In this document: one piece after another, positions 6,367-63,715 of the stretch | Layout of the letters: each line of letters begins with the position of its first letter | How positions within the stretch are numbered: the stretch's first letter is position 1 | Source: Acidobacteriota bacterium | GTDB taxonomy: Bacteria; Acidobacteriota; Holophagae; Holophagales; Holophagaceae | DNA length: 64,000 bases | Direction of reading: 5' to 3' | NCBI GenBank assembly: GCA_016213735.1 | Contig: JACQZU010000002.1 | Span: 1-64,000, forward strand | The notes under the pieces: generated by a model | Database searches by the model: none | Told to the model about the DNA's origin: nothing | What the model saw: only the letters and a program-made list of their open reading frames with translations | Position numbers and translations under genes: made by a program

Positions 6367-6414
6367 GGGAGCTTTCTCCACCGCCAGGATGCCAGAAGGC
6401 CGCCTCCGGGACCC

Positions 6415-45405: not shown

Positions 45406-45601
45406 GGCGGTTCCCGAATCATCCAGTCTATCGGCTTCGGAAGGTGCCACCCAGCGGGGACTTCATGGGCCCGACCTTCAGGGGCGGTGGGGATTCAGGA
45501 TTCCTGGATCGTTTTTTCGTATTCCCTTTTACCTGCTCCCCTTCTACGCTCGGCGGAACCACCCTCTGCCGGTGCATCCGGCTTGTCCCTCAGGAGCCGC
45601 C

Positions 45602-48529
45602 GTGCGAGCCCTCCAGGCCATCCTCCGGACCCTCCCCGCCAGCCTCCTGCTCCTGGCCAACCTCGTGTGCGGGGGAGGAGGGGGCGGGGCCGCCCCCGCA
45701 CCCGATCCCCAGATCGCCTCCTTCACCGCGGCCAAGAGCCCCATCACCTCCGGGACCTCGACCACCCTCACCGCCGTGTTCTCGAACGGGACGGGGTCGG
45801 TGGACCAGGGGATCGGCGCCGTGCAGAGCGGGGTCGCCGTCAGCACAGGCAACCTGGCCGCGGACCGGACTTTCACCCTCACGGTGACGAATGCCGGCAA
45901 GAGCGCCACCGCCACCGTGCAGGTTCGGACCCTGGCCTCTCCCCAGATCGCCGCCTTCACGGCCAACCCCGCGGCCATTGATCCCGGAGCCAGCACCACG
46001 CTCTCCTGGACCGTCACGGGGGCCGCCACCGTCACGCTGGACCAGGGGATCGGGGATGTGACGGGGACCCCCTCCCGAAGCGTCTCGCCGGCCACCACCA
46101 CCACCTACACCCTCACCGCCACCAACGCGGCCGGAGGCAGCGTGAGCGCCACCGCCACCGTCCAGGTGGTCCCCCCCCCGCTGATCTCGGCGTTCACGGC
46201 CAGCAGCCGGCGCTTCGGGTTCTTCCAGGGAACCACCCTGAACGCCACTTTCGCCAATGGCACCGGGGTGCTTCAGCCGGGCAACCTCCCCGTGACCAGC
46301 GGGGTGCCCCTCACCCTGACGCGCCTGGGCGCCCAACGCCTGGTGCTGACCGTCACCAATTCCCTGGGACGCTCGGTGCGGGCCGTCCTCGGGGTCAGTC
46401 CCGCGCCGCCCCTGTCGGCGGGGGCCATGAACAGCCTGATGGTGAAGGCCGACGGCACGGTGTGGGCCGCGGGCTACAACGGCAGCGGCCAGCTGGGGGA
46501 CGGGACGAGGGTGAACCGGGCCACCCCGGTCCAGGTTCCTGGCCTCACCCAGTGCGTCGCCGCCGCGGCCGGGGGGGCCCATGGACTGGCCTTGCGGCAG
46601 GACGGCACGGTCTGGGCCTGGGGGAGCAACTTCGCGGGCCAGCTCGGCGACGGCAGCACGACCGACCGCCTGGTGCCCGTTCCGGTGGCGGGGTTGACCA
46701 ACGCCGTGGCCATCGCCGCCGGCGGGAGCCACAGCCTCGCCGTGACCCAGGACGGTTCTCTCTGGGTGTGGGGGTACAACGTCTACGGACAGCTGGGAGA
46801 CGGCGGCACCGCGAACCGCACCCAGCCTTTCCGCCTGGTCAGCCTCGAAGACGTCCTGGCCGTGGCTGCGGGGTACGGCCACACCTTCGTCCTCAAGGGC
46901 GACGGCAGTGTCTGGGCCTTCGGATGGAACGGCCAGGGTTGCCTGGGAGACGGCAGCATCACCAGCCGGAGCACTCCCGTTCCCACCTCCGGGCTGTCGT
47001 CAGGCGTGGTGGCCGTGGGCGCGGGGCAATATTCAGGCTACGCCCTGAAGGCGGACGGCAGCGTGGCGGCCTGGGGCTACAACTTCGAGGGGGAGCTCGG
47101 GGACGGGAGCACCAGCCAGCGGAACACCCCGGTGGCGGTGTCATCCCTGACGGAAGTCTGCATGCTGGGAGGCTCGGGGCAAGGGAGCTACCACATGCTG
47201 GCCGCCACCATGAACGGAGGGGTCTACGCCTGGGGGCGGAACAACTACGCCCAGCTCGGAGATGGAACCACCACGGATCGGACCGTGCCCACCCTCCTTC
47301 CAGGGGGCCTCACCCACCCGGCGGTCCTTTCCCAAGGGGGCTACCACAGTCTGGCCCTGTCCCCGGACGGGACGGTGTCCGCCTGGGGCTGGAACGGGTT
47401 CGGCCAGCTGGGCATGGGCGTCAACCCCTGGCGCACCTTTCCCGCGGCTTCCATCGACCTCGGGGGCCAGACCTCCAGGCCCTTCGCGGGCAGCAGCGCA
47501 TCCCACGCCTTCGCGCTTCTCTTCGACCGCACCCTCCGTGCCTGGGGTTCCAACAGTGCGGGCCAGCTCGGGGACGGCACCCTTCTGGACCGAAGCTCCC
47601 CCCAGATCGTGCCGGGGTTGAACAACGTCGCCGCCGCCGGCGGCGGCGCGGCCCACAGCGTGGCCCTCAAATTGGACGGGACCGTCCACACCTGGGGGTG
47701 GAACGGCTCGGGGCAGCTGGGAGACAACGGCACCACCGACCGCCCCAGTCCCGCCCAGGTGCTTGGACTGACCGGAGTCACCGCGGTGTCGGCGGGCTAC
47801 TACTCCACCTACGCCCTGAGGAGCGACGGAACGGTCTGGGCTTGGGGAGGAAACCAGTTCGGGCAGCTGGGGGACGGTTCCACCACCCAGCGGAACACCC
47901 CGGTGCAGGTCCAGGGCCTCTCCGGGATCACCGCCATCTCCGCAGGCGGATTGCACGTCCTGGCGCGGAAAAACGACGGCACTTTGTGGGCCTGGGGAGC
48001 CAATGGCCAAGGGCAGCTGGGGGACGGGTCCACCACCGACCGGAGCCTGGCGGTCCGCTGCGGAACCCTCACGGGAGTCACGCTGCCCGTCGCCGGGTTG
48101 TACTCGAGCTACGCCCTGAACGCCAGCGGCCAGGTGTACGCCTGGGGCCACAACGCCTATGGACAGATCGGGGACGGCACCACCGCTCACCGAAGCTTTC
48201 CCTTCCTGGTCCCCACTCCGCCCGGCGTCATCGCCCTCAGCGCGGGTGGGTATTTCGCCCTGGCGGTGGACTCCGCCCGGGCGGTCTGGTCCTGGGGCCT
48301 GAATTCCAGCGGCCAGCTGGGGGACGGCTCCAATGCCCAGCGGGTGGCCCCCGTGCCCGGAGTGGTCACCAGCGGAACCCAATACCTGGAGGCCGGGGCC
48401 AACCACGCCCAGATCGTGCTCCTGGGGGGATCCATGTACACCTGGGGTTCCGACGGCTACGGCCAGCTGGCCACGGGCCGGGCCCTCTGGCAGGCCGTTC
48501 CCACCCCGCAAAGCGTCAAACTCTGGTAG
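45602..48529 (+). CDS. RCC1-repeat protein with Ig-like N-terminal region
   Basis: This 975-residue exported protein starts with a GTG, GGAG five bases upstream, and a hydrophobic leader followed by Cys23 and a Gly run, as in lipoproteins; the lipobox is not perfect. Two or three Ig/PKD-like modules follow (ASFTAAKSPITSGTSTTLTA and AAFTANPAAIDPGASTTLSW repeats, up to about residue 270). Then come 14 RCC1 repeats of about 50 residues, each with a WGxNxxGQLGDGT core, ending near the C-terminus. Fourteen blades would make two seven-bladed propellers. Its role is unknown; binding at the cell surface is inferred. Confidence 0.82.
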   Translation: MRALQAILRTLPASLLLLANLVCGGGGGGAAPAPDPQIASFTAAKSPITSGTSTTLTAVFSNGTGSVDQGIGAVQSGVAVSTGNLAADRTFTLTVTNAGKSATATVQVRTLASPQIAAFTANPAAIDPGASTTLSWTVTGAATVTLDQGIGDVTGTPSRSVSPATTTTYTLTATNAAGGSVSATATVQVVPPPLISAFTASSRRFGFFQGTTLNATFANGTGVLQPGNLPVTSGVPLTLTRLGAQRLVLTVTNSLGRSVRAVLGVSPAPPLSAGAMNSLMVKADGTVWAAGYNGSGQLGDGTRVNRATPVQVPGLTQCVAAAAGGAHGLALRQDGTVWAWGSNFAGQLGDGSTTDRLVPVPVAGLTNAVAIAAGGSHSLAVTQDGSLWVWGYNVYGQLGDGGTANRTQPFRLVSLEDVLAVAAGYGHTFVLKGDGSVWAFGWNGQGCLGDGSITSRSTPVPTSGLSSGVVAVGAGQYSGYALKADGSVAAWGYNFEGELGDGSTSQRNTPVAVSSLTEVCMLGGSGQGSYHMLAATMNGGVYAWGRNNYAQLGDGTTTDRTVPTLLPGGLTHPAVLSQGGYHSLALSPDGTVSAWGWNGFGQLGMGVNPWRTFPAASIDLGGQTSRPFAGSSASHAFALLFDRTLRAWGSNSAGQLGDGTLLDRSSPQIVPGLNNVAAAGGGAAHSVALKLDGTVHTWGWNGSGQLGDNGTTDRPSPAQVLGLTGVTAVSAGYYSTYALRSDGTVWAWGGNQFGQLGDGSTTQRNTPVQVQGLSGITAISAGGLHVLARKNDGTLWAWGANGQGQLGDGSTTDRSLAVRCGTLTGVTLPVAGLYSSYALNASGQVYAWGHNAYGQIGDGTTAHRSFPFLVPTPPGVIALSAGGYFALAVDSARAVWSWGLNSSGQLGDGSNAQRVAPVPGVVTSGTQYLEAGANHAQIVLLGGSMYTWGSDGYGQLATGRALWQAVPTPQSVKLW

Positions 48530-48646
48530 GACAGCTCCCCCGGCGGACCGGGACCCCGGGAACCTCTCGTGGGCTTCGCGGACGAGAGGCTATCATTGAA
48601 AAAAACCCGCACACCCCGATCCTGAGACCCCACCTCCGGCTTCCGC

Positions 48647-50458
48647 ATGCCCAAGATGCCCAGACCCCGAACCCTCCTTCTGGCAGGACTGGGGCTGGCG
48701 GCCATGGCCGGGGGCCTGGCCTTCCACTACGGGATCTCCCGGCAGGTGCGGTCCGTCCTGGGGGAGGACTCCGCACGGCGAAGCCAGCTTCAGTTCGTGG
48801 ATCTTGCGGACCCGCCCGGGGCGGTCGACTTCTGGGGGAGTGGTGAGGTTGAAGCCGTGTGCGCCACGCCGTCCTCCCTCCTCACGGCCGGCGGGTTCGG
48901 GGTGATGGACGACGGTGGGAGCATCTCGAAGGCCCTCCCGGGCTTGAAGGTCCCCGTGCTCTCCCAGTGGCGCGGCCACCCCGTGGCCGGGTTGGCCTCC
49001 GGGGGTCTCTTCCTGCGCCGCGGGGGGCGTTGGCAGGAGGCCCGGAGTTCCTTCTCCCCCCTGCAGGTTCGCGCCCTTCTGGAGGGCCCGGGGGGCGAGC
49101 TGTGGGTCGGGGCCAGGCAGGGATTGTTCCTCGCCCCCTGGGCTTCGGACCTTCTGGAACAAATGGATGCCGCCCCCGTGCGGACCCTGGCCCTGGCCGG
49201 GGACGGCTCCCTTCTGGCGGGGGGAGAACAGGGGTTGAAGCGCTTCCAGGGAAGGCGCCCCTCCCTCCTTGAAACACCCGATCCCTGGATCGACTGGGTC
49301 GGGGTCCAGGGCCTGGACCTGTGGGCCCTGACCCCCCTGGGCCTGCTCCACGGGTCCCTGGGGGGCACCCTTCAGCCCGTCCCTGGGGGGCAGGAGGTCC
49401 GTGCCGCCGTCCAGGCCGGGAACCAGGTGTTCGCCGTGGCCTCCGGACGCCTTCTGCGCTTCGAACCTTCCGGCCGCGCCGCCGAGGAAGCCCTGCCGGA
49501 CACGCCCCGCCGGGTGTTCGCGAGCGGCGGCGTGCTCTTCGCGGATGCCCGGGCAGGACTCTATCGGAAGGGCCCGGGGGGGTGGGCGCTGCTCCGGCCC
49601 AGGCCGCAGGGGTTTCCCCAGGGTTCCAGCCATGTGAACGCCCTCGCGGAGTGGCGGGGCCGGGTGGCGGTGGGACTCTTCGACGGAGGGGTCCTGCTGG
49701 GGGAGGCCTCGGGCGAAGGCATGGCCTGGAAGCCCCTCTCCGACAACTCCTTGTGGGGGATCAACGCGCTGATGCCGGTGGAGGGAGTCCTGTACCTCGC
49801 CGGCCTCCGCGGCGCCGCGCGCTACGACGGCCGCAGGCTGACCCCCCTGGCCCCCGGTTCGGCCTACGCCCTGGCCCGGGGCCCCGGGGGAGTCGCCGTG
49901 GGTTACGGGCACGGAGTCCAGCTTCCGGACGGGAGACTCCTGTCGGCCTTCCACGGCCTTCCCGGGAACCAGGCCCTGGCCCTGGCCGCAGGAGAAGAGC
50001 TGGTGGTGGGCACCCCCTCGGGCCTGGGCGCGATCGTGGATTCCAAGGTGTCGTGGCGGGTCACCGCCGGTGACGGGCGGCTTCCCAACCCCTGGGTGAC
50101 CTCCCTGGCGCAGGCCAAGGAGGGGCTCTATGTGGGCACCTACGGCGGCGGCGTGGCCCTCCGCCGGCCGGAACCCGATCACCGCCCCGGGCCCGGCAGC
50201 TTCCACCCTTTCCCCGAAACGGCGGGGTTGAAGGTGAACCCGGGCTGCCTGGCCCAAGTGGACGGCAGGCTCTACCTGGGCACAGACGGGCGGGGCTTGT
50301 TCCGGCTCAGCGAGGACCGAACGCACTTCGCCCCCCTCCTCGTGGCGCTGCCATCCAGGCGGGTGACGGCGCTGCTGCAGCTCGGTTCCTTCCTCCTCGT
50401 GGGGACCGATGAAGGCATCGCAAGGTTTCCGCTCTCCCTGCTGCGCGAAGGGTCCTGA
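48647..50458 (+). CDS. Secreted or membrane-anchored beta-propeller protein
   Basis: This 603-residue protein has an N-terminal membrane anchor (about residues 8-27). The rest has recurring strand patterns such as GGELWVGARQGLFLA, GRVAVGLFDGGVLLG, GVLYLAGLRGAARYDGRRL and GRLYLGTDGRGLFRL, typical of the propeller repeats seen in two-component regulator sensors (Reg_prop). No kinase is attached. It ends one base before the VIT/VWA gene and starts the tightly spaced cluster. ATG at 48656 is also possible as a start. Confidence 0.72.
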   Translation: MPKMPRPRTLLLAGLGLAAMAGGLAFHYGISRQVRSVLGEDSARRSQLQFVDLADPPGAVDFWGSGEVEAVCATPSSLLTAGGFGVMDDGGSISKALPGLKVPVLSQWRGHPVAGLASGGLFLRRGGRWQEARSSFSPLQVRALLEGPGGELWVGARQGLFLAPWASDLLEQMDAAPVRTLALAGDGSLLAGGEQGLKRFQGRRPSLLETPDPWIDWVGVQGLDLWALTPLGLLHGSLGGTLQPVPGGQEVRAAVQAGNQVFAVASGRLLRFEPSGRAAEEALPDTPRRVFASGGVLFADARAGLYRKGPGGWALLRPRPQGFPQGSSHVNALAEWRGRVAVGLFDGGVLLGEASGEGMAWKPLSDNSLWGINALMPVEGVLYLAGLRGAARYDGRRLTPLAPGSAYALARGPGGVAVGYGHGVQLPDGRLLSAFHGLPGNQALALAAGEELVVGTPSGLGAIVDSKVSWRVTAGDGRLPNPWVTSLAQAKEGLYVGTYGGGVALRRPEPDHRPGPGSFHPFPETAGLKVNPGCLAQVDGRLYLGTDGRGLFRLSEDRTHFAPLLVALPSRRVTALLQLGSFLLVGTDEGIARFPLSLLREGS

Positions 50459-50459
50459 C

Positions 50460-52826
50460 ATGCGCCTATTCCAGAGATCGACACTCCCCTGGGCCGCCCT
50501 GTCCGCGATCCTGGTGCTGCCCCTGGGCGCCCAATCCGGGCTGCTGGTCCCCACCAGCACGGGCCGGCCCGACCCCGCGGTGCTGTCGCTCCGGGAAATG
50601 GCGGTGGAGCTCGGGATCGCCCGGGGCTACGCCAGGGTCCAGGTTCGGCAGGTGTTCGAGAATCACACCTCCTCGGTCCAGGAAGGCACCTACCGATTCG
50701 CCCTCCCCCCCTCCGCCGCCGTGGGCGACTTTGCGGTCTGGGACGGCCTGATGCGGATACCCGGCGTCATCCTGGAGAAACAGCGGGCCAGGGCCATCTA
50801 CCAGGAACTGACCCGCCAGCGCATCGATCCGGGCCTGCTCCAGCAAGGCGAGGAGGAAGGCGGGGCCCCCGGGGAGGCTGCGCCCTCCTCCCGCCCCAGC
50901 GGAGCGGCCCTGTTCTCGGTGACGGTGGCTCCGATCCCGCCCATGGCCACCAAGCGGCTCGAGCTTCAGTTCCACCAGGAGGTCCCCCTGATCGGAGGGA
51001 CCGGCGAATTCCGACTGGTGCTGCGCCCACCGGACGGCGAAGCACCGGTCGCCGGGACCTTCCAGGTCCGGATCCAGCTCGACGACGCGCGTTTCGAGGC
51101 TGTCCCCACGGGGCTTCCTCTCACTCCTTCGGGCACAGGCGCGACCTTCACCGGCAGCAAGGTCCGCCTGGACCGGGACCTGGTCTTCCGGATCAAGCCG
51201 AAGGATGGCGCTCCGCTGCGGCTCTCCGCCTTCAGGAACCCGGAGGGCAGGCTCCCCGACGGCCTGGCCCTGGCGCCCTGGGAACGGCCCACCGAGATCC
51301 CGCCGGAAAAGGACGGGTACTTCCTGCTGGAGGCCATGCCCCCCCCGGCCCAGGCCCCCCGGAATGCCGGGAGCCCCTCGACGGCGGCGCGCCCCACCCC
51401 GGGCCAGGCCCTGGCCATCCTGTTCGACACCTCCCTCGGCCACCGGTGGGGGGGGTTGGAGGCCGCCTACGGTCAACTGGTGAGGATGCTCGGGAGCCTG
51501 CGTCCCGAGGACCGCTTCGTCCTGATTCCCTTCGACCGCCGTCCTGCAGGAGGGACCAAGCTCCAACCGGCCACCCCGATGGCCATCGAGTCGGAACTGG
51601 CCACCCTGCGCAACCGAAGCCTCGGCCCCGGGGCCGATGTCCCCAAGGCGCTGGCCGCCGCGCGCCAGTTGCTCGGAGGCCAGGGGCGGATCCTGCTGCT
51701 CACGTCCGGCCAGGGGCTCGCCTCCTCGAAGGCCCTGAAGGAGTCCGCCGGTCCCCTGGCGCTCTTCACCTTCATCACCACCGGCCAGGCCCACGAGGCC
51801 TTCCAGTCGGCTTCCGCCATGGTGCTCACCTCCACCTCCACCGAGATCGAGACGGACCTCTTCTTCCAGCGGCTCCTGGCGCCTGGAAGCCCGGAGTCGA
51901 AGGCCGCCAGGAAATCCGCCGGGGACGCCCCTTTCACGGTGACCGGCGGCAACCCCAGGCTGCGACACATCTATCCTGTGATGCTGCACCCCATGGAGCC
52001 CGGCGCCCTGTCCGGGTGGGTGGGACGCTACGAAACGCCCCTCGCGGAGGCCCGATTCGAATGGCCCTCGCCCCTGTTCCCCGGCGGCCGCGCGACCCTC
52101 CAGGCCTCCCTGCCGGAGAAGGCTCTCGAGGCCCGGGATCTGCCGAGGCGATGGGCCCGGGCCCGGGTGGACGACCTTCTCGCGCGCATCGAGTCGGAAG
52201 GGGAGAGACGCGAGTGGGTGGACGAGATCATCCTTCTCTCCAAACGCTACAAGTTCGTGACGCCCTACACCGCCTTCCTGGCTGCGCCCCGATCGCTGCT
52301 CCGGCCCCGCCGGATCCAGCCCGGCGACCCCGTCCTGAGGGTGGAGTGCGATCCGGGGACCTCCTCGGCCACCGCGCTCTTCCCCTTCGGCCTGAAGCTC
52401 GACCTGGCCCGCCGGCATGGCACCAACGTCTGGGAGGGCCGCTTCCTGGTGCCCGAAGGATTCCCGGACGGCCGGTACCCGGTCCGGATCCTTCTCCGCG
52501 CCCGGGGCGGGGCCACGGTCACCGAGACCAAGCATTTCATCCTCGACGGGCAGGCCCCCGTGATCCATCCGGAGCTGCCGGGTTCCGCCCGTGCGGGCGA
52601 ACTGCTTCGGGTGCAGGTGCGGACCGACGCCGACGTGGTGCTGCTCACCGCGAGAATCGGCGATGCGCCCCCCGTGCCCCTGCGCTGGGACCCTGAGTCG
52701 AAGCGCTCGGTGGGCCTCCTGCGCATCCCCGAGCGCCTGACCGGCACCCAGGAGCTGCTGTTCGAGGCGGTGGACGGAGCCAAGAACCACGGCTTCGGCC
52801 GGGCCCTGCTGGAGGTGCGGCCATGA
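50460..52826 (+). CDS. VIT and von Willebrand A domain protein
   Basis: This 788-residue protein has a signal peptide (WAALSAILVLPLGAQ), then a VIT domain (about 25-200; VRQVFENHTSSVQEGTYRFALP, RARAIYQELTRQRIDPGLL). A VWA-like domain begins near 315 (ALAILFDTSLGHRWGG, a degenerate MIDAS where DxSxS reads DTSLG). The C-terminal Ig-like strands recall macroglobulin-type folds. The combination is that of inter-alpha-trypsin-inhibitor heavy chains and their bacterial relatives. It starts one base after the propeller gene and overlaps the giant gene (ATGA). Confidence 0.82.
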   Translation: MRLFQRSTLPWAALSAILVLPLGAQSGLLVPTSTGRPDPAVLSLREMAVELGIARGYARVQVRQVFENHTSSVQEGTYRFALPPSAAVGDFAVWDGLMRIPGVILEKQRARAIYQELTRQRIDPGLLQQGEEEGGAPGEAAPSSRPSGAALFSVTVAPIPPMATKRLELQFHQEVPLIGGTGEFRLVLRPPDGEAPVAGTFQVRIQLDDARFEAVPTGLPLTPSGTGATFTGSKVRLDRDLVFRIKPKDGAPLRLSAFRNPEGRLPDGLALAPWERPTEIPPEKDGYFLLEAMPPPAQAPRNAGSPSTAARPTPGQALAILFDTSLGHRWGGLEAAYGQLVRMLGSLRPEDRFVLIPFDRRPAGGTKLQPATPMAIESELATLRNRSLGPGADVPKALAAARQLLGGQGRILLLTSGQGLASSKALKESAGPLALFTFITTGQAHEAFQSASAMVLTSTSTEIETDLFFQRLLAPGSPESKAARKSAGDAPFTVTGGNPRLRHIYPVMLHPMEPGALSGWVGRYETPLAEARFEWPSPLFPGGRATLQASLPEKALEARDLPRRWARARVDDLLARIESEGERREWVDEIILLSKRYKFVTPYTAFLAAPRSLLRPRRIQPGDPVLRVECDPGTSSATALFPFGLKLDLARRHGTNVWEGRFLVPEGFPDGRYPVRILLRARGGATVTETKHFILDGQAPVIHPELPGSARAGELLRVQVRTDADVVLLTARIGDAPPVPLRWDPESKRSVGLLRIPERLTGTQELLFEAVDGAKNHGFGRALLEVRP

Positions 52827-55800
52827 TCCCGCTCAAGCTCCGGGTCTTCTCCCTCCTGCGGCGCCGGAGCCTGCTCTGGGCCTTCCCCCTGGCCCTGGCG
52901 GGCACCACCGCCACCAAGGTCCCCTGGACCGAATTCACCGAGGCCGACTGGATCCATGGTCTCGCCACCCGGTTCGCCACGGTGGATGGGCACCGCGTCC
53001 ACTATCCGACTCCCCCCGCGGAACTGGCGAAACTCCTCGAGACCCGAAGCGAAAGCGCGGCCCTCCGGCACCTCGCGGAGGCCCGCCTGGAGCTGGGCGA
53101 CCGCCCAGGGGCCCTGACCGCCATGGAACGGTGGGCCTCGGCCGAAGGCCCCGCCGCCTGGGCCGAGACGGCGCGGTGGGCCTTCGCCCACCACGAACCC
53201 GCCGCGGCCTTCCGGGCCGCCGAACGCGCCCTGCCCGGGCTGCCCGACGCCGAACGCCGCGCCCTCGCGGACGAACGGGTGCGTTGGGCCGACCGCTTTC
53301 CTGGCCAGGCGGACCCCATCGCCCTTCGCCAGGCCAGGGCCGCGCTGTTCCCCGGGGACCCCCTGCCGCTCGAGGACTGGATTCGCGCCCTGGAGAGGGC
53401 CCACCGCCTGGAGGAGGCGGATCGTGCCCTCGCCTCGGCCAGGGCGCTCACGCCTGAACGCAGGCTTCTGCTCCGTTCGGACCTCCTGGCGGACCATGGG
53501 AACCTCCGTGGCGCCCTGCAGGTCCTCGACGATGCGGTGGCCCAGCCGTGGTCCATCGATCTGCGCCGGGCCTTCGCGCGACGCGTGAATGCGGCCCTGC
53601 CCACCGCCCCGGACACCTGGCGCGCCCGACTCGAGAAGACCTACGATGGGGCCGCGCTGGTGCGGCTGGCCACCTGGTTCCAGGGCCAGGGTCGCGGCGA
53701 CGCGGCCGCGGATCTGCTCCGTCAGGTCGAGCGCCGCCACGAGGGAGGCTTCACCCGAGAGGCCCATCTGCTCCAGGCGCGGCTTTACCAGGAGATCGAC
53801 GCCATCCCCGAGGCCTTCCGCGCCACCCTGGCCGCGGCCCACCTGGGCAGCGCAGAGGAGCAGGCCTCCGACATCGGCGCCCTGGCCCGCCTGGCCCTGC
53901 GCGCGGGCGGACGGCCCCTGGCGCTCGGCCGCTACAACGAGGAGGCCTACCGCTGGGCCGCCCGGGTGGACCGCACCCCGGGATTCTGGACAGGGGGAAT
54001 CTCTTTCCTGCTCACGGGCCTCGATTGGAATGACGCCCTGGCTCGGCTGGAAAGCGCCTCTCTGCCCGACCGGACCTTCGCCCTGGCCCGGTGGCTGGTG
54101 GGGGAGCTGGAGCGGCGGGTTCCCACCCATCCCGAGCTGCCCCCCCTGCGGGTCGCCTTGATGGAGCGCCACGTGGAACGCGGGGAGGGCAAGGCCGCCC
54201 TGGACCTCCTGCCGGCCCTCGAATCGGGGCCGCCCGCCACCGCCGACGCTGCCCGCCGGGTCGCCCTCCTGGCCGTCCGACAGGCCCCGGTTCCGATCCA
54301 GGAGGAGCTCCGGCTGATGAAGGCCCGGCTGCGCTTCCTGGCGCCGGACGGCAGCCGTCCCTCCGGCCGCGCCGAGGCCTCCGAAGGGGAAGGGGAATCC
54401 GGCGAGGAGGCGCCGGGCGAGGCCCGCCCCTGGGCCAGGCCTCCCAAGGGAACCGCTCCGCCGAGCCACGGGGAGCTGTTGAACGAAAGCCTGGCCAGGC
54501 TGGAGCACCGGGACCCCTCCCACCTGAGTTCCCTGAACCTGGTCCTCGGCGAGCTGGATCGTCTCCCGGAGGCGGAGCAGCTATGGATGGACCTGGCCTC
54601 CCGCCTCGAAGGCTGGAACCTGGACGACGAACTCGGCCCCCGCTACGAGCGGGCGATCCAGCGCTTCCACGGCCCGGGAATCTGGCAGCGCAGCGCCCGC
54701 TGGTACGCCCGGCGGGCCCGGCACGCCGAACTCAGGGGACTGGCCACGGCCCTCGCGGGAGCCTTCCGGGGCTCCGACATCTTCTCGCGGTGCGACGGTG
54801 CAGGTGAACTCCGCGTCGAGATCCCCGAGCAGCCCCCGGTGGGGACCCGCATCCGCCTGGTGGCCTGGGGCGACTGGGTGCGCCTCAAGGCCCTCGAACG
54901 GTTCCCGCAGAGCCCCAGGGTCTTCCACGAATCCCGCCGCCTCCTGAGCGAGTCCCAGTGGCGAAAGGTCGTCCGCCCTGAACAGGCCTACCCTTCGGTG
55001 GCCCCGGTGGTGGCGCCGGACGGACTGCTGGAACTGCGAAGGTGGGCCATCCTGTTCGTCGATCCCGAGGAACGGGAACGGTTCTTCGCCACGGCCATGC
55101 GCCAGGGTTCCCTGGCCACAAGGCTCGCCGCCCTGGAGACTCAGAAGGATCGGACTCCGGTGGAGGACCTGCTGCTTTTCGAGGGCTGGTCCCGCCTGTC
55201 CGGGTTCGAGCGCGCCGTCCCCGCCGCAGACCGGCTGGCCGCGAACTATCCCGGGGACGGCGAACTGGCGAGGCGGGTGCTCACCCTGCACCGCTCCCTG
55301 AACGGGCTGGACGCGGCCCACGCCGCACCGGCCCGGACCCTGGTGGCGCGTGTGGCCCCGGCCCTGGAGGATCCTGCCCCCCTGTGGACAGAATTGGGGG
55401 AACTGGAAGAGGAGCGGGGCAACCCCCAGGCGGCGAAGGAGATCTGGAAGCAGATCCTCGACCACGACCCCAGGAACCCCGGCCGGATTGCGGAGTTGGC
55501 CACCCTCCTCTGGGACTACAACCATGACGCGGAGGCCCTGAAGGTGATCGAGGAGGGCCGGCTCCGCCTGGACCGGCCGCGCTTCTTCGCCTTCGAGACG
55601 GGGGTCCTGAGGGAGAACCTCAAGGATGCGGAGGGGGCCGTCCGGGAGTACCTGGATGCCCTGCGCCCCGAACAGGCCGCAGGCTACGGCTCGGCCTACG
55701 AACGGGACCAGCGCTCGCTCCGGCGGCTGGCCCAGCTGCTGGGCCGCGAACGCATCCGCGGCATCGTCGAGCGGCGGATCCGCGCCCTGAAGGCGGGCGA

Positions 55801-58800
55801 CCCTGGCGAGGAGAGGACCCTGGCGGCCTTCTTCCCGATGGCCACCATCGAGGCCCCCACCCCGGGTCTGGCCTGGGACGCGGATGCGTGGATCGACGGG
55901 ATGGACCTGCCCAGCGACCCCGTCGGACGGGACGCCCGGGCCGCGCGCATGGCCGGGGAGCGGCCGGCCCAGTACGACGGCATCGCCCGGATCGGAGACG
56001 TGCTCCTGGAGAAGGCCCAGGAGATGGTGCCCCGTGCCACCTCTCGGGAGTTCCTGAGCGCGGTGCAGGTCTGGAGCGAATCCCTGATCGAGAAGCGGTG
56101 GTCCCGCGATCGGATCGTTTCATTCAGGAACGCCTCCATGGCCCGCCAGGCCGCCCTGGCGCCCGACGAGGGTGCGCGGATCCGGCTCGAGGTCCTTCGG
56201 GCGAAGTATCTGGCCGAGCAAGGACGCGGGCCGGAAGCGGATTCCGTGTGGGCCGCGCTGGATGCCCGCATCGGGGCCATCCCGGAAGGTTCGGCGCGCC
56301 TTCGGGCCGAGTCGGAACGGGCCGGCTACCTCGAAAGGACCAAGGGGGTCGGGGCCGCCGCCGCCGAATGGCGCCGCCTCACGGGCCTCTTCCCCTGGAG
56401 CCTCGGCCTGCTGGAGGATCGCCTGGCCTTCCTGCAGCGGACGGGCCTCGGAGAGGAGGGCCGCAGGGCCATCGAGGAGGTCCTTCCCCGGGCCGCCTCG
56501 GGGCACCGCGAGGCCCTGCTGGAGCGGCTGACCCGCGAATGCATCGCCGCCGCTGACCTTCCCCGGGCCCGGCGGGCCGTGGAGACCTGGCTCGCCGAAG
56601 CCAGCCTCGAGGGGTCACGCCGGATCCAGGCCGTGCACCTTCTGGCCCGGCTCTCCTACAAGGAGCAGGCCGCCTGGGATCCCTTCCCTCTGGCCCGGGC
56701 TGAATCCGCCCGTTTGAAGGAAGGCGAACAGGCTGACCTCTGGCAGCAGCTTGCGCGGGCCGCGGACCTCGAATCGGCCAAGGCCCTGCCCCTCTGGATC
56801 GAGGCCCTGAACCGGCGCACCGAGCGGGATTGGCTTGCGGCGGCTTCACGGTCCGCCCAGCGCACCGGCCAGGGCGACGAGCTGCTCGGCTTCTTCGAGA
56901 AGCAGCAGCTTCGCAGCCCTCGGGATGTCCGGTGGGCCGTGGCGGTGCGTGACATCCGGCGGGCGTTCCACCAGGTGGACGGCGCCATCGAGGCCGCCAA
57001 ATCGGCGGTGTCGGTGCGCCCCGAGCGGGAGATCCTGTGGCGCGAGGCGGCCGACCTGCTCGTCCGGGCCGACCGCATCCGCGAAGCCGCGGACTACCTC
57101 GAGGGCTGGAACCGGCCCCGGCCCGCGGACGAGGACGTGGCCCGATGGCGGAGCGAACTGTACGCCCGCGCGGGCAGCGGGGATCGGGCCCTGGCCGTGG
57201 AGCGGGCCGCCCTGGAGGCCTTCCGCAAGGAAGCGAAGGACAAGACCGAGCTCGCCCAGCGCCGGGCCCGCGCCGCGATCCGCCTCATGGACCTGGGGCT
57301 CCCCAACCTGGCCTTGAACCTGTTCAGCCCTCAGGGCGACATCCTGGCCCTCAGCGGCAGCAGAGTGCCCGCCGCCAAGCAGTGCGAGCTGGCCCTCCTG
57401 GTCGACCAGTTCCCGAAACTGGTGGCCCGCCACGAAGGGGACGCCGACTTCCTCGCCGCGGCCGCTTCCACCTTCCGGACCAGCGCCCGTCCCGAACAGG
57501 GTGACCAGCTTCGGGCCTTCCTCCTGGGGCGGCTCCTGCCCCAGGGGCAGGTCCAGGCCGACCCAGGGGCCCTGCAGGCCTGGTGGACCTTTGTGGGTCA
57601 GTCCGGTCTCGAGGCCCAGCTCCGCTTCGCCCTGGCCGGAAGCCTCGCCTCGGCGCGGCCCGGCCCCTGGCAAACGAGCCCCCCCCTGCCCTTCCTCGAA
57701 CGCGCGAGCGCCGGCCTGATCACCAGGGTCCAGGGCTTCGGAGGCCGCCAGGTCTGGGCCTGCAGGGAGCCCGACTGGTCGCGCCTATGGGCCCAGGACC
57801 TCGCCCGGCGAGACCGGCCCGGAGAGCTGTTCGCCTACGTGGAGCCGAGGTGGCAGGACCTTCTGCAGCAGGTCAAGAGCTTGCGCCCCGTCACGGCGGA
57901 GGGTCCGCGCCTCCCCTGGGCGCCCTGGTTCGACGACCCCAAGGTGCTGGAGACCTGGAGCCGCGAAGCCACCCGACGCCCCGAGAAGGGCCCTGAGCTG
58001 GCGGAGGTGCTCAGCCACCGGGGCAACTGGGACCGCTTCTGGGCCCTGGCGGCCCGGGGCTGGGACCCCGCGCCCCTGCTCCGGCTGGCCCCCCAACCCG
58101 CGCGTTCCGCCTGGTTCGGCTTCTGGGAGAAGCCGGTGCCGCCGGATCCGGTTTCCCAGGCGCGCCGGCGCAAGGTGGACGAGACCACCCAGGCCCTCGC
58201 TCGCCTGATCCAGGGCCTTCCGGGCGCCTCCGAGGATCCCCTGATCGTCAAGCTTCGGGGTCCGCAGAGCGTGGGAGAGGTCATGGGCCGCAACGCCCGG
58301 TGGGTCTGGGCGGAATTCCAGCCGCGCCGCAACGAGAGGGGAGAGAACATCGAACAGGGCGAGGACCGCGTGTCCGGCAGCGGCGTGGACGCGGGAAGGA
58401 TTCCCGGGGCCCTCTGGGGCGACCGCCCCGGGGAGGCTTGGTACGTGCTGGAAACCCTGGCCCGCTACCGCCAGCGGGACGAGACAGCCCTGGTCCTGCC
58501 GCTGGAAGTGCCTCGGCGCGGCCATGAAACCGAGCGCCTCCTCCTCGCCATGGGCCTGGCCCGGGGCCTGGGGCGTCCGGACCTCGCGATGCAGATGGAC
58601 CGGGAGCATCCTCCCGCACCGGGGGACCGTCGCCGGCTCGAAGCCAGCGTGGCCCAGTTCGCCGCCGCGGGGCGCAAGGATGAGGCCCAGGAGGCCCTGC
58701 GGACCTTCCTGCGTCATGGCCAGGGCAGCCTCACCGAGGCCAGTTTCCGCGGGCAAGCAGCGCTTGCCGAGGAGCACGGCCTGGGGACGCCCCTGGACCT

Positions 58801-60481
58801 GCTGGACCCCGGCAAGCCCGTGGGCCCCGCGTTCCTGGCCTTCCTCCACGATCAGCGCAGGGAGGCTTCGGGGACCTTCCACACGGAGGACACCACGGGC
58901 TTCCGCCTGGCCCTGCTCAACCGTTGGCGAGGCCGGGAGGACGAGCTCTCCGCGGGCCAGGTCCGATTCTGGCTGCAGGAGTTGTGGGCCACCGGCAGCG
59001 GACCGCTGCCCGTGGGTGGCCTGAGGAAACTGGGCGGAGCCTGGCCCCATGCCGCGGAATGGCTCGGCGGCCGCCCCGTGCCCGAACGCCGGGCCGCCCT
59101 GGAGGCCATGGAGGAAGCCATGAATCCGGCCGTGGCCCAGCCCCGCCGCTTCCCCTGGCCCGGTCCCGGGGCGGAGGAGGTCCTGCGCCTGCTGGCCCTT
59201 CGCCTCCGGCTGGCCCGCCATGAGCTGCCCCAGGCGTTGGCCATGGTCGACGAGATGTTGCAGGAGTACCGCCGGGAGGAGGGCCTGGGCCTGCCGGCCT
59301 CCGTCCAGGAGGCCGAGCGCCCTGCCGGGCGGGAGGAGGGAGAAGGCGACGAAGAGGGAGAAAGCTCCGCAGCCCCATCCCAACTGGAACCTCGATTCGA
59401 CGATCCCATGGTGAACCGGCTCCGGGCGTGGCTGAAACCGTTCACGGACCTGCGGAAGGCCGAAGCGGTCGAGGAGCGCCTGCGCCAACTCCTGCGTCTG
59501 CGCCGGGGCCGGGGGGCAGTCTCGGTGGCCGCCTGGACGCTGGCCTTCCAGGTCACCCCGCCCTCCGACCTGGACGCCCTGGCCGGCGAGTTGGAGGGGG
59601 CCTGGTTCCGGGGCGATCTGCATCCCGACCAGCTGGGAACCTTGGCGGAAACCCTTGCGCTCCTGCGACCGGGGGACCTTCCCCGCTGGCTCGCCCGCTG
59701 GCCGCGAAGCCACGGCTTCGCCCACGCTCGGCAACGGGCGGCCATCTTGGTCGTGGCCAAACTGCCGGCCCAGGCCTCCACGGTGCTTGGGGAAAGCCGG
59801 AAACGCACCCTCTGGCGCACGGAGGAGGAAATCCAGGCCTTCGATTTCTGGAGGCGGCGGATCGGTTCTTCCCCCGACGCCAGGGTCCCCTCTGCCTGGG
59901 CCCGGGCCCTGTCCTATTGGGTCCCACGGCCACCTGGATCCCCGGGCACCTCGCTGCTGGACCACCTGAGGGGAAACCCCAGCGACGCCCTGGCCGCCAG
60001 GTCCGCCCTGCGCACCCCCCAACCCGCGGACGAGGACACCATGGTCCGGGTGGGACTGGCCCTTGGGGACCGTCACCTGTCGGCTCAGGATCGCCTCCTG
60101 ACCCGCTTGAAGGTTGCCCGGGGGCTGCTCCCGGGCTCCTGGCGAGCCGCGGGCAGCGCCCTTGGCCAGGCGAGCCCGGCAGACCTTCGACGGATGATGG
60201 TGGAGCGACGGATGAAGACCGCCGACATCCATGCCGCCCTGGCCGACCTGGCGCGTCTGGCCGGCAGGGCAGGAGACGAGCCGCGGGCCAAGGAATTCCT
60301 CGCCATCCTGGGGGAGCGCAAGGCCCCGAACCTCCAGGCACTCTATGCCGAACTGGAAAAGGAGCGGCCGGCCACGCCCGAGGCCTACCGCGTGGTGGAC
60401 GGACGGCCCGCGCCCATCCGGCCGAGGGACCTCACCTGGACCCTGGTGGCCCAGGTGCTCAAGTCGGAGGGGATTCGATGA
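52823..60481 (+). CDS. Giant tetratricopeptide-like helical-repeat protein
   Basis: This 2552-residue protein is the largest in the window. A short hydrophobic N-terminal segment (about residues 18-30, WAFPLALAGTTATK) suggests export or membrane anchoring. The rest is an Ala/Leu/Arg-rich alpha-solenoid with TPR-like helix pairs (AEARLELGDRPGALTAMERWA, GDRALAVERAALEAFRKEA). Two acidic Gly/Glu-rich linkers interrupt it near residues 515-545 and 2165-2195. I find no enzyme motif. It overlaps both neighbours by four bases and may act as a scaffold for the secreted VIT/VWA and SpoIID-type partners. Confidence 0.75.
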   Translation: MIPLKLRVFSLLRRRSLLWAFPLALAGTTATKVPWTEFTEADWIHGLATRFATVDGHRVHYPTPPAELAKLLETRSESAALRHLAEARLELGDRPGALTAMERWASAEGPAAWAETARWAFAHHEPAAAFRAAERALPGLPDAERRALADERVRWADRFPGQADPIALRQARAALFPGDPLPLEDWIRALERAHRLEEADRALASARALTPERRLLLRSDLLADHGNLRGALQVLDDAVAQPWSIDLRRAFARRVNAALPTAPDTWRARLEKTYDGAALVRLATWFQGQGRGDAAADLLRQVERRHEGGFTREAHLLQARLYQEIDAIPEAFRATLAAAHLGSAEEQASDIGALARLALRAGGRPLALGRYNEEAYRWAARVDRTPGFWTGGISFLLTGLDWNDALARLESASLPDRTFALARWLVGELERRVPTHPELPPLRVALMERHVERGEGKAALDLLPALESGPPATADAARRVALLAVRQAPVPIQEELRLMKARLRFLAPDGSRPSGRAEASEGEGESGEEAPGEARPWARPPKGTAPPSHGELLNESLARLEHRDPSHLSSLNLVLGELDRLPEAEQLWMDLASRLEGWNLDDELGPRYERAIQRFHGPGIWQRSARWYARRARHAELRGLATALAGAFRGSDIFSRCDGAGELRVEIPEQPPVGTRIRLVAWGDWVRLKALERFPQSPRVFHESRRLLSESQWRKVVRPEQAYPSVAPVVAPDGLLELRRWAILFVDPEERERFFATAMRQGSLATRLAALETQKDRTPVEDLLLFEGWSRLSGFERAVPAADRLAANYPGDGELARRVLTLHRSLNGLDAAHAAPARTLVARVAPALEDPAPLWTELGELEEERGNPQAAKEIWKQILDHDPRNPGRIAELATLLWDYNHDAEALKVIEEGRLRLDRPRFFAFETGVLRENLKDAEGAVREYLDALRPEQAAGYGSAYERDQRSLRRLAQLLGRERIRGIVERRIRALKAGDPGEERTLAAFFPMATIEAPTPGLAWDADAWIDGMDLPSDPVGRDARAARMAGERPAQYDGIARIGDVLLEKAQEMVPRATSREFLSAVQVWSESLIEKRWSRDRIVSFRNASMARQAALAPDEGARIRLEVLRAKYLAEQGRGPEADSVWAALDARIGAIPEGSARLRAESERAGYLERTKGVGAAAAEWRRLTGLFPWSLGLLEDRLAFLQRTGLGEEGRRAIEEVLPRAASGHREALLERLTRECIAAADLPRARRAVETWLAEASLEGSRRIQAVHLLARLSYKEQAAWDPFPLARAESARLKEGEQADLWQQLARAADLESAKALPLWIEALNRRTERDWLAAASRSAQRTGQGDELLGFFEKQQLRSPRDVRWAVAVRDIRRAFHQVDGAIEAAKSAVSVRPEREILWREAADLLVRADRIREAADYLEGWNRPRPADEDVARWRSELYARAGSGDRALAVERAALEAFRKEAKDKTELAQRRARAAIRLMDLGLPNLALNLFSPQGDILALSGSRVPAAKQCELALLVDQFPKLVARHEGDADFLAAAASTFRTSARPEQGDQLRAFLLGRLLPQGQVQADPGALQAWWTFVGQSGLEAQLRFALAGSLASARPGPWQTSPPLPFLERASAGLITRVQGFGGRQVWACREPDWSRLWAQDLARRDRPGELFAYVEPRWQDLLQQVKSLRPVTAEGPRLPWAPWFDDPKVLETWSREATRRPEKGPELAEVLSHRGNWDRFWALAARGWDPAPLLRLAPQPARSAWFGFWEKPVPPDPVSQARRRKVDETTQALARLIQGLPGASEDPLIVKLRGPQSVGEVMGRNARWVWAEFQPRRNERGENIEQGEDRVSGSGVDAGRIPGALWGDRPGEAWYVLETLARYRQRDETALVLPLEVPRRGHETERLLLAMGLARGLGRPDLAMQMDREHPPAPGDRRRLEASVAQFAAAGRKDEAQEALRTFLRHGQGSLTEASFRGQAALAEEHGLGTPLDLLDPGKPVGPAFLAFLHDQRREASGTFHTEDTTGFRLALLNRWRGREDELSAGQVRFWLQELWATGSGPLPVGGLRKLGGAWPHAAEWLGGRPVPERRAALEAMEEAMNPAVAQPRRFPWPGPGAEEVLRLLALRLRLARHELPQALAMVDEMLQEYRREEGLGLPASVQEAERPAGREEGEGDEEGESSAAPSQLEPRFDDPMVNRLRAWLKPFTDLRKAEAVEERLRQLLRLRRGRGAVSVAAWTLAFQVTPPSDLDALAGELEGAWFRGDLHPDQLGTLAETLALLRPGDLPRWLARWPRSHGFAHARQRAAILVVAKLPAQASTVLGESRKRTLWRTEEEIQAFDFWRRRIGSSPDARVPSAWARALSYWVPRPPGSPGTSLLDHLRGNPSDALAARSALRTPQPADEDTMVRVGLALGDRHLSAQDRLLTRLKVARGLLPGSWRAAGSALGQASPADLRRMMVERRMKTADIHAALADLARLAGRAGDEPRAKEFLAILGERKAPNLQALYAELEKERPATPEAYRVVDGRPAPIRPRDLTWTLVAQVLKSEGIR

Positions 60482-62004
60482 ACCGCTGCGCCCTCCTGTT
60501 CCCCCTGGCCTGCGCCGCGTTCCCGGCGGAGGTCAGGCTCCCCCTGCCGGAGGCACCCGTGCGGGTGCTCATCCCCGACGTCGCCACCTTCGACGCGAAC
60601 CTGACGGGTGCCTACCGCCGCTTCGCCACCGGCCAGCCCAAACCCGGAGACCCCCTGCTCTCGGCCTGGCGCCGGACCCAGGTCGGATCGAAGCTCGAGG
60701 ACCAGTGGACCCGCTTCTCGGAGTTCCTTCCCCTCACCTGGGGAGACATCCGCAAGCTCCAGGCCACCTCCCTAGGATTGGCCCTGCTGGAGGTGGGCCA
60801 TCTCGAAGCCCTGGTCATCCTGGAGACCCCCCTTGCGGCGCTTCCAGTCCCTCTGCCCAAGGGGGAACGGAAGACCCATGGCGGCGTTTCCTACACCCTG
60901 GTGGCCCACGGAGCCGCGGACCCCTCCAGGGACCCGGACCGGCGCATGGGCCTGGCCTGGGCCCATTCCGGAACGCGCCTGTTCCTGGCCACCAGCGAGC
61001 GGGCCCTGAAGCTGGGGCTCGACGAGGCCCTGGCGGGCCGGGGCCTCAAGCCCCCCATGGAGGGCTTCGTCAGCATGGAGCTGAACCTGGACGCCCTGCG
61101 GAAGGACCGCTACTTCCGACGGGAATTCCCCTTCGAGGCCGGACCCGAGGGCGGGCGGATCCGGGCCGCGCTCCGGAAGGAAGGCGGGGGGCTCGTGGAG
61201 GTCCGGGAGGGACTCGGGGGGACCTCCACCGGCGTGGGATCCTTCGAGGCCCCCGCCGCGGCGGCCTGTGGCTGGGAGCCTGAGGGGAGCGGATTCTGGG
61301 TGGCCTTCCGGCGAGGCCTCCTGGAACCGGTTCCGGCGCCCGCAGAACGGCCGGTGGCCGGGCTTCGGCCCCTGCCCGATCCTGCCCAGGAGAACCGCGG
61401 CGACCGGTACGCCGTGGACCTTACCCGCGCGGTTGCGGGTCCGGGCGAGGCCTCCCATGAGGAGGGGGACCTGGGTGTCTGGAAGGACCTGCTGCGCCGG
61501 ACGCCGGTGGCCCATTGGGGCTGGTGGGTCGGACGGGACGGCGTCCGCCGCATGGTCTTCCCCTGGCCCGAGGCGCAGGACAAGGCCTTCCTGGATGCCT
61601 GCCAGGCCACCTTATCCCGCCGAGGGGGCCGGAGCACCGTGGTCACCCAGGGGGGGATCCGGGAAGTGCGGGTCGGGGCCCAATTCCCGGTCCTTGCGCT
61701 GCGTCGGACCGGAGCTTACCTGTGGGTGTCCGGAACGGCCAGGGACCTGCAAGCGGTGACCCTCCCCCAGGCCGACCCGGACCTGCTGCGCTGGGCCAAG
61801 GTGGACCTCGCCGCGGTCCGCGCCGAAACGCCCCGCTGGGCCAGGGCGGAAGGCCCCCCCCGGCCTGAAGAGGTTCGCCCCCTCTCCGACCGGGTGGTGG
61901 GCCTCCTGGGCTGGATGCCCGCCACCTCCTCGATCTCCGTGGAACGGCGAAAGACGGCGGGAGGATGGTCCGAAACGGTGCACTTCGGCGCTCCGGCCAA
62001 GTGA
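60478..62004 (+). CDS. Secreted protein of unknown function (possible DUF2138/YfaA counterpart)
   Basis: This 508-residue protein has a short signal peptide (CALLFPLACAAFPAEV). It is made of alternating strands and helices with no catalytic motif I recognise. Segments such as LEALVILETPLAALPVPL, GGVSYTLVAHG and GTRLFLATSERALKLGLDEALAG give it the look of large periplasmic proteins such as E. coli YfaA (DUF2138). The likeness is by layout and position, not by a clear motif. It lies immediately before the YfaQ-like gene, in the order of the yfa operon (yfaA then yfaQ). Confidence 0.55.
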   Translation: MNRCALLFPLACAAFPAEVRLPLPEAPVRVLIPDVATFDANLTGAYRRFATGQPKPGDPLLSAWRRTQVGSKLEDQWTRFSEFLPLTWGDIRKLQATSLGLALLEVGHLEALVILETPLAALPVPLPKGERKTHGGVSYTLVAHGAADPSRDPDRRMGLAWAHSGTRLFLATSERALKLGLDEALAGRGLKPPMEGFVSMELNLDALRKDRYFRREFPFEAGPEGGRIRAALRKEGGGLVEVREGLGGTSTGVGSFEAPAAAACGWEPEGSGFWVAFRRGLLEPVPAPAERPVAGLRPLPDPAQENRGDRYAVDLTRAVAGPGEASHEEGDLGVWKDLLRRTPVAHWGWWVGRDGVRRMVFPWPEAQDKAFLDACQATLSRRGGRSTVVTQGGIREVRVGAQFPVLALRRTGAYLWVSGTARDLQAVTLPQADPDLLRWAKVDLAAVRAETPRWARAEGPPRPEEVRPLSDRVVGLLGWMPATSSISVERRKTAGGWSETVHFGAPAK

Positions 62005-62005
62005 C

Positions 62006-63715
62006 ATGGGGGTCGGCCCGGGGATCCTGGTGGGGCTTCTGTGCACCGCGGGAGCGCAGGCGTCCCCCCCTTCGCCTGCCGCCCTCCAGACCTGGACCGC
62101 CGGGGCGGGTGTGGCCGAGGATTCGAGGGGCGCCGGGGAAGCCCCTCTCGCGGTCGGTTCCCTGCAGAAACCCTTTGTGGCCCAGGCGTGGGCCGCGGCG
62201 CACCCGGAGGAGGATCCCCCGCGTTTCGTCTGCGCGCCGGGACCGGGCTGCTGGAACCGGGCCGGCCACGGGGAGGTGGGGCTGGTCCGGGCCCTCTCCC
62301 TCTCCTGCAACGCGTACTTCCGGAACCTCGCCGCCGCCACGCCCCCTGCCCGGCTGCAGGCGGCCTTCTCCGAGGCGGGCTTCATCGGAACCCCACGCTC
62401 TCCCGACCAGGCCATCGGCCTGGAGCAGGGCGAGGGGTCTCCCGTCATTCGTCCGAAGGACCTGCTGGCGGCCTACCTCCGCCTGGTGCGGCGTCCCTGG
62501 CCCCTGGGCGAGAGGATCCGCGAGCAGGTGCTGGCGGGCCTGAGGGATGCGGTCTGGAAGGGCACCGCCAGCGGCCTGGGGAGGCAGGGTGGCTGGGCCA
62601 AGACCGGCACGGTTCCCTCCGGCCCCCTGCACACCTGCGGACTGGCCCTGTTCGTGGACGACGCGGGCTCCGCGGTGCTGGGCCGGCTGGATCCGGGTAC
62701 GGGCCGCGGTGCGGCCCTTCGCCTGGCCTCCCTTTCCCACACCTCCGCCCTGGAGGGGGAGCAACCCTCCGGAGATGCCTCGGTGACCCTCCGCCTCCTG
62801 GACCTGTTCCGGGGCCGGAGGATATTCCTGCGCAACCTTGGGGAGAGCCCGGTTCCCACGGGTGATGGATTCCTGGGCCCTGGGTCGAGGATCGAAATCA
62901 AGCCCGGCCAGTGGGCCGGCCCGGGAGACCTGGAACTCCTGGAACCCCGCAGCGGCCTGGCCCGCCAGGTCCGGGGCAGGGTCCTGGGACGGAACGGGCC
63001 GGATGGGAGGCTCTCCATCCTCCTGGTCTCCTCGCTCCAGGACTACGTGGCCGGGGTCCTGTCCGCGGAACTCACGGGGCCTGATCATCCGCTGAGGATC
63101 GAACTCGGAGCCGCCATCCTCCGTTTCCTCGCGGCGGGCCCCCGCCATCCGGACGCGGACGTGTGCGACGCCACCCACTGCGCGTGGTTCGTCGGCCGTG
63201 GAGCCCCCCCCCGCTGGCCCGCTCCGGGGGTGTTCCGCCGCGGATCCTCCCCGGGGGCTTCCCTCGACCTGGCGGGGCGGGACTGGCTGGACATGCAGGC
63301 CCTGGCGCGCCGCCCCGGGCCCTCCCAATGGACCAGCCATTGCGGGGGACGCTCCCTCAGCGGCCGTCAAGTGTGGGGGGCGGGAGATCCCGCGGTTCAT
63401 CTGTGCCCGCGCCACCAGGGGGGTCAGACCCGGCCCTGGGAGCGGACCTGGACCCTCCAGGAGGCCGAAAAGGCCTTCGGTTCCCCCATCGACTCCATCC
63501 TGGTGGGCATGGACCACGAGCGTTGGGTGCTCCTCGCGAGGGGCCCGAAGGGAACCCGGGCCTTCGACTACGATGACGCCCACCGGCGCCTGGCGGCGGC
63601 GGGTGGCTGGGGCGCCCTCCCCAGTCCCGCGGACACGGTGGAGCGCACCGAGCAGGGTTTCCGGGTGCGCGGCGTGGGCCTGGGCCACCGGGTCGGGCTG
63701 TGCCTCGGGGACTGA
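62006..63715 (+). CDS. Transpeptidase-like/SpoIID fusion protein (YfaQ, DUF2300-like)
   Basis: This 569-residue secreted protein starts one base after the previous stop. Its N-terminal half carries the serine transpeptidase triad in order: SLQK (52-55), SCN (100-102) and KTGT (199-202), so a penicillin-binding-protein or class D beta-lactamase fold is likely. The C-terminal half resembles SpoIID/LytB: LQDYVAGVLSAEL (about 340-355), CDATHC (about 387-392) and GVGLGHRVGLCLG at the end. From memory E. coli YfaQ has the same layout (SLWK, a central SCG, a SpoIID part). Both halves touch peptidoglycan. Whether the enzyme is active is unknown. Confidence 0.72.
   Translation: MGVGPGILVGLLCTAGAQASPPSPAALQTWTAGAGVAEDSRGAGEAPLAVGSLQKPFVAQAWAAAHPEEDPPRFVCAPGPGCWNRAGHGEVGLVRALSLSCNAYFRNLAAATPPARLQAAFSEAGFIGTPRSPDQAIGLEQGEGSPVIRPKDLLAAYLRLVRRPWPLGERIREQVLAGLRDAVWKGTASGLGRQGGWAKTGTVPSGPLHTCGLALFVDDAGSAVLGRLDPGTGRGAALRLASLSHTSALEGEQPSGDASVTLRLLDLFRGRRIFLRNLGESPVPTGDGFLGPGSRIEIKPGQWAGPGDLELLEPRSGLARQVRGRVLGRNGPDGRLSILLVSSLQDYVAGVLSAELTGPDHPLRIELGAAILRFLAAGPRHPDADVCDATHCAWFVGRGAPPRWPAPGVFRRGSSPGASLDLAGRDWLDMQALARRPGPSQWTSHCGGRSLSGRQVWGAGDPAVHLCPRHQGGQTRPWERTWTLQEAEKAFGSPIDSILVGMDHERWVLLARGPKGTRAFDYDDAHRRLAAAGGWGALPSPADTVERTEQGFRVRGVGLGHRVGLCLGD

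Follow-up and report, generated by a model that had tools for sequence, protein, structure and literature searches.

The window analysed here is a 64,000-nucleotide stretch of a Holophagaceae genome (Acidobacteriota bacterium, contig JACQZU010000002.1, positions 1 to 64,000 of the forward strand). It holds five adjacent open reading frames for export-type proteins, all on the + strand, which we call genes A to E:

48647..50458, + strand: gene A, a beta-propeller protein of 603 aa whose N-terminus holds a hydrophobic anchor (Reg_prop match, hydropathy, conserved first gene of the operon)
50460..52826, + strand: gene B, a 788-aa exported VIT/VWA protein, ITIH-like (VIT match, ITIH4 structure match, VWA and Ig-like matches in orthologues, MIDAS scan)
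52823..60481, + strand: gene C, a 2552-aa exported helical, TPR-like solenoid, the hallmark of the system (weak Pfam TPR match, helical model)
60478..62004, + strand: gene D, a 508-aa exported protein with no recognised fold (neighbour of C in nearly all operons seen)
62006..63715, + strand: gene E, a 569-aa fusion of PBP-transpeptidase-like and SpoIID-like domains (motifs, split orthologues, profile matches)

Genes A and B, and likewise D and E, are separated by 1 bp, and the B/C and C/D junctions are 4-bp overlaps (ATGA at C/D). A preliminary description of this DNA as carrying a five-gene exported operon with such gaps and overlaps thus proved exact in its reading frames, order and spacing. 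By hydropathy, each of the five proteins has a hydrophobic signal or anchor segment at its start, beyond which no second strongly hydrophobic or transmembrane stretch is present. An identity as an anti-phage system was dropped, since the PADLOC models gave no match to the operon. Directly upstream of gene A, but outside the conserved operon, lies an exported protein with many RCC1-like repeats, recognised by eye (45326-48529, + strand; GDGSTTDR...WGxN). Between this gene and gene A is an inverted repeat (CCTCTCGT...ACGAGAGG, 48563-48590). The sequence that follows it is rich in A, not in T, and searches for a terminator or promoter there gave no match. ARAGORN also called a tRNA-Trp on the opposite strand within gene C (57890-57984, - strand), which is probably a false positive because it has no Rfam support.

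Gene A matches the Pfam Reg_prop propeller repeat (5e-8), has its hydrophobic anchor at residues ~10-24 and is the conserved first gene across the operons surveyed. The likeness of gene B to the inter-alpha-trypsin-inhibitor heavy chains, pointed out in the preliminary description, was borne out by a Pfam VIT match (3.5e-18) and by ITIH4 as its best solved relative (3.5e-8). Distant orthologues of gene B carry VWA plus C-terminal Ig-like domains, with VWA_3 at 3e-13 in one of them; taken together with the VIT and ITIH4 matches, these give gene B the VIT-then-VWA domain order of ITIH-like proteins. A MIDAS scan placed a MIDAS-like DTSLG near residue 323 in the window's protein, versus DTSLS in many relatives. 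Gene B is also weakly similar to a sortase-target VIT/VWA family.

The giant solenoid encoded by gene C gives a weak Pfam TPR match, and the C-terminal half is predicted to consist almost entirely of helical hairpins (pLDDT 66). Fold matching of this model returned generic helical-repeat structures alone, with the TPR protein LbcA of P. aeruginosa among the weak matches, and therefore gave no sign of a hidden enzyme domain in this half. Gene D has no Pfam or NCBIfam match, although its family extends to ~590-aa proteins 3' of C across the phylum; its AlphaFold model is of low confidence (mean pLDDT 58) and has no credible PDB match. Gene D had been taken for YfaA (DUF2138), an identity that Pfam, HMM and profile-profile tests did not support. 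An early tblastn search had placed a match of gene D close to a DUF1175 gene (3.5e-6). Profile comparison did not confirm it: gene D showed no similarity to YfaA of E. coli or to the gene that precedes DUF1175 in relatives. The supposed correspondence of the last two genes to an adjacent yfaA-yfaQ pair fails as well, as the actual E. coli order is yfaA-yfaT-yfaS-yfaQ-yfaP.

The preliminary description, which called gene E YfaQ-like, overlooked both its SpoIID half and its transpeptidase motifs. Its Pfam transpeptidase match is weak and below the family cut-off; NCBIfam indicates PBP2-like similarity and, for the C-terminus, a SpoIID/LytB match below threshold, and among solved structures PBP2 comes nearest (4e-6). 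In distant operons the two parts occur as split orthologues, E1 (Pfam Transpeptidase, 1e-10) and E2 (SpoIID, 1.5e-17), which a gene E profile matches at 1e-30 and 6e-16, respectively. The assignment of motifs to catalysis is well established for both families. SxxK (SLQK), SxN (SCN) and KTG are invariant in the E proteins of four family members, as are the SpoIID-type Glu355 and DxCDxTHC (DVCDxTHC in the window). The class B PBP signature of SxxK, SxN and KTG within a putative transpeptidase fold is therefore found in gene E, for which transpeptidase-like and SpoIID-like activities are predicted from the motifs. Gene E gave no direct match to DUF2300. A profile of the fused transpeptidase and SpoIID proteins of A2M operons, on the other hand, matches gene E at 2e-37 over 467 columns and E. 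coli YfaQ at 3.6e-13 (a single-sequence search, mainly over the SpoIID part). Since one profile reaches both proteins, gene E is likely to be YfaQ-like through a chain of homology; this part of the earlier claim stands via the A2M-operon intermediates, and a direct assignment to DUF2300 does not.

A profile built from the N-terminal 1.5 kaa of C separates its family (>190 bits) from ordinary TPR proteins (<57 bits). By this measure 38 of 396 sampled genomes of the Acidobacteriota, which live in soil and water, have a member of the C family; the carriers belong to 18 families, and the reading frames are mostly of 2.3-2.7 kaa. At least 29 of these 38 carriers keep A-B-C-D in order (30 if one operon split over two contigs is counted), and about half of the operons also carry E or separate E1 (transpeptidase) and E2 (SpoIID) genes; in a few genomes there is just C-D or C. 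A-B-C-D is therefore the core of the operon, and E is an associated module. Four relatives within the family also keep the five-gene order, at 48-71% identity, so that the arrangement, conserved in the family and, as A-B-C-D(-E), across the phylum, is not due to chance. A contig scan with patterns able to find close relatives named Holophagaceae/Acidobacteria assemblies as C carriers, and a search of plasmids for the system found nothing. In three species that share a genus and have genomes of 3.7 Mb in two contigs (G201, G177 and G238; loci L130, L135 and L073), the gene for the giant solenoid has none of A, B, D and E in its vicinity, and three other genomes (G136, G147 and G396) have two copies of it. 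We found no earlier description of the operon in a literature search that covered few subscription papers; as far as we searched, an operon with this four-gene core and a 2.5-kaa solenoid appears to be unreported.

The preliminary description saw no macroglobulin gene in the window, and this holds for the whole genome (G000): neither the genome nor the five proteins contain an A2M domain. The genome also has no match to DUF1175 (YfaT/MagE; PF06672), and the five proteins have none to DUF2135 (YfaP/MagF). In relatives without the five-gene operon, DUF1175 (YfaT) comes before an A2M gene with a CxEQ thioester motif, and after this gene come a small protein and a transpeptidase / zincin-like / SpoIID protein. 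In more distant Acidobacteriota, DUF1175-A2M is followed by the transpeptidase and SpoIID genes, either fused into one or as a separate pair. Two of the YfaQ-like proteins of A2M operons (L025 12056-14416 and L027 4926-6656) have a zincin-like HExxH between or after their transpeptidase and SpoIID parts, a segment not seen in the window's gene E.

A comparison of two genomes of one genus shows what can become of the A2M locus. In G003 and G071 both flanks of the locus are conserved (mostly 82-84%, with one stretch at 75%). The space between the flanks is filled by the A2M operon in G003 and, in G071, by A-B-C-D-E together with a remnant of the A2M-operon transpeptidase gene. G057 has the same arrangement as G071, with flanks at 77-88% and the locus split over two contigs. 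The remnants in G071 and G057 still form open reading frames, with 68% and 72% identity to the gene of G003; both have lost the SxN serine and the KTG lysine, and that of G057 has also lost the SxxK lysine. Given these decayed remnants, replacement of the A2M operon by the five-gene operon is the simpler reading of the direction. In a tree of B, the replaced copies of G071 and G057 group with G009 of another genus, against the genus order, which hints that their operon may have been acquired horizontally. The window's own operon lies away from the A2M locus, as judged by the absence of flank similarity. The earlier idea that the giant protein takes the place of A2M is thus literally true of the operon at that locus in two related species and not of the window's operon, which lies elsewhere.

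The distribution of C and A2M within the family of the window points in the same direction. Among 77 genomes, 15 have C, 33 have an A2M domain and none has both, including C carriers from four genera where A2M also occurs; some genomes have neither. A complete lack of overlap would arise by chance with a probability of 6.5e-5 without stratification, 5e-4 if the count is limited to genomes of at least 90% completeness (9 versus 25, 0 shared) and 0.005 with stratification by genus. Exclusion as a phylum-wide rule is ruled out: DUF1175, a marker of the A2M operon, co-occurs with C in 4 genomes against about 5 expected, and G327 carries both operons. Since the systems are independent across the phylum, the exclusion is a family-level pattern, and it could partly reflect ancestry. 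Most of the surveyed genomes are metagenome-assembled and many are fragmented. In one C carrier of the family (G080), DUF1175 persists as an orphan gene, A2M being absent. Orphan DUF1175 genes lie away from A2M in two genomes of one genus (L113 1665-2684; L114 around 6157-7549), where both adjoin the same electron-transfer-flavoprotein-like genes; one of these two genomes has the five-gene operon.

Based on the replacement at the locus, the homology of E to the A2M-operon partner and the likeness of B to ITIH4, we tentatively propose, at a little under an even chance, that the operon encodes an exported, periplasm-facing assembly which substitutes for the A2M (mag/yfa-type) envelope-guard system. 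A could anchor this assembly to the inner membrane, and the solenoid C together with D could form its scaffold. The VIT/VWA protein B would capture attacking enzymes (proteases or peptidoglycan hydrolases), the task that falls to the macroglobulin elsewhere. When present, E may act on nearby peptidoglycan through its transpeptidase-like and SpoIID-like domains, coupling capture to wall repair. The swap of the two systems at one locus (G071, G057), the non-overlap in the family, the match of E to the A2M-operon partner and the ITIH4 likeness favour this functional substitution, a role predicted from genomic data. The co-occurrence of the systems across the phylum, the lack of E in about half of the operons, the position of the window's operon off the A2M locus and the lack of homology of the core A-D to A2M, DUF1175 or, by sequence, YfaA count against it. 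A broader version, which we consider somewhat doubtful, would have a phylum-wide envelope-immunity machine in which the work of A2M is done by an ITIH-like VIT/VWA trap carried on a giant TPR scaffold in the periplasm, the two systems being interchangeable at one locus.

The same observations can be read without any role in defence. The solenoid and the VIT/VWA protein may scaffold an E-type enzyme in a machine for cell-wall remodelling or morphogenesis, and A2M may have been displaced because both loci carry related wall enzymes, with no match in function. E, or E1 with E2, does retain the PBP motifs and the SpoIID Glu/Cys/His set, and there are examples of TPR scaffolds in the periplasm with control over wall enzymes, LbcA being among the weak fold matches of C. 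Nevertheless, such a machine is rather unlikely, as A-B-C-D persists in the roughly half of operons where E is absent and A2M is missing from 15 of 15 carriers in the family. The C-terminal Ig-like domains that accompany VWA in distant B proteins and the weak similarity of B to sortase-target proteins could instead suggest a surface or secretion assembly (e.g. the biogenesis of an extracellular adhesive structure), in which the VIT/VWA protein would be the tip that is exported, and the propeller and the TPR solenoid would act as assembly factors. We regard this as improbable: no outer-membrane pore, sortase, pilin or secretion motor is present in the conserved block, and the exchange in situ with the A2M operon would be left unexplained.

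Finally, the exclusion itself might be an artefact that stems from common ancestry and from the incompleteness of metagenome-assembled genomes, with the use of one locus being a coincidence of insertion. The absence of exclusion outside the family, the fragmentation of many genomes and the genomes with neither gene fit such an artefact. It is quite improbable, however, given that the non-overlap holds in the more complete genomes and within genera, and that two independent assemblies show a precise swap with a decaying remnant.

What survives of the preliminary description is a real, apparently undescribed operon with a connection to the A2M envelope system, its link to YfaQ and the replacement of A2M, for which the evidence comes from loci outside the window; the identification of YfaA does not survive. 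If the broader version of our proposal is correct, the VIT/VWA trap and A2M of Acidobacteriota would form a bacterial parallel to A2M and ITIH4 of plasma. The locus also offers a natural experiment, in which an unrelated assembly with a similar peptidoglycan-enzyme partner has displaced the A2M operon in place while the old partner decays; the function common to both swapped systems is likely to be the real one.

Comparison with known systems sets out what is shared and what is new. Like ITIH4 and other VIT/VWA proteins, gene B combines a VIT domain with a VWA-like domain bearing a MIDAS-like motif and matches the ITIH4 structure, but it is bacterial, has a C-terminal Ig-like region and shares its operon with four further envelope proteins. 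ITIH4 is a cleavage-dependent protease inhibitor that acts through a non-covalent complex after cleavage, and small substrates are still processed under its inhibition, as with A2M (PMC10855846). Gene C resembles periplasmic TPR scaffolds such as LbcA in being an exported helical-repeat solenoid; its family differs in its size of 2.3-2.7 kaa, the fold similarity is weak and there is no sequence match to LbcA. Gene E keeps the SxxK, SxN and KTG of class B PBPs and the Glu and DxCDxTHC of SpoIID/LytB, although both domains are fused, their scores are far below the family cut-offs and the context is not one of sporulation. The closest comparison is with the mag/yfa (type II alpha-2-macroglobulin) system, whose mag operon shields P. 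aeruginosa from peptidoglycan-targeting T6SS effectors (PMC12663445). Both are exported multi-protein operons, gene E is a likely counterpart of the YfaQ-like transpeptidase and SpoIID partner, and in two Holophagaceae species the five-gene operon occupies the chromosomal slot of the A2M operon. In contrast to that system, the window's genome has neither A2M nor DUF1175 and its operon neither DUF2135 nor detectable DUF2138, the building parts being instead a giant TPR solenoid, a VIT/VWA protein and a propeller.
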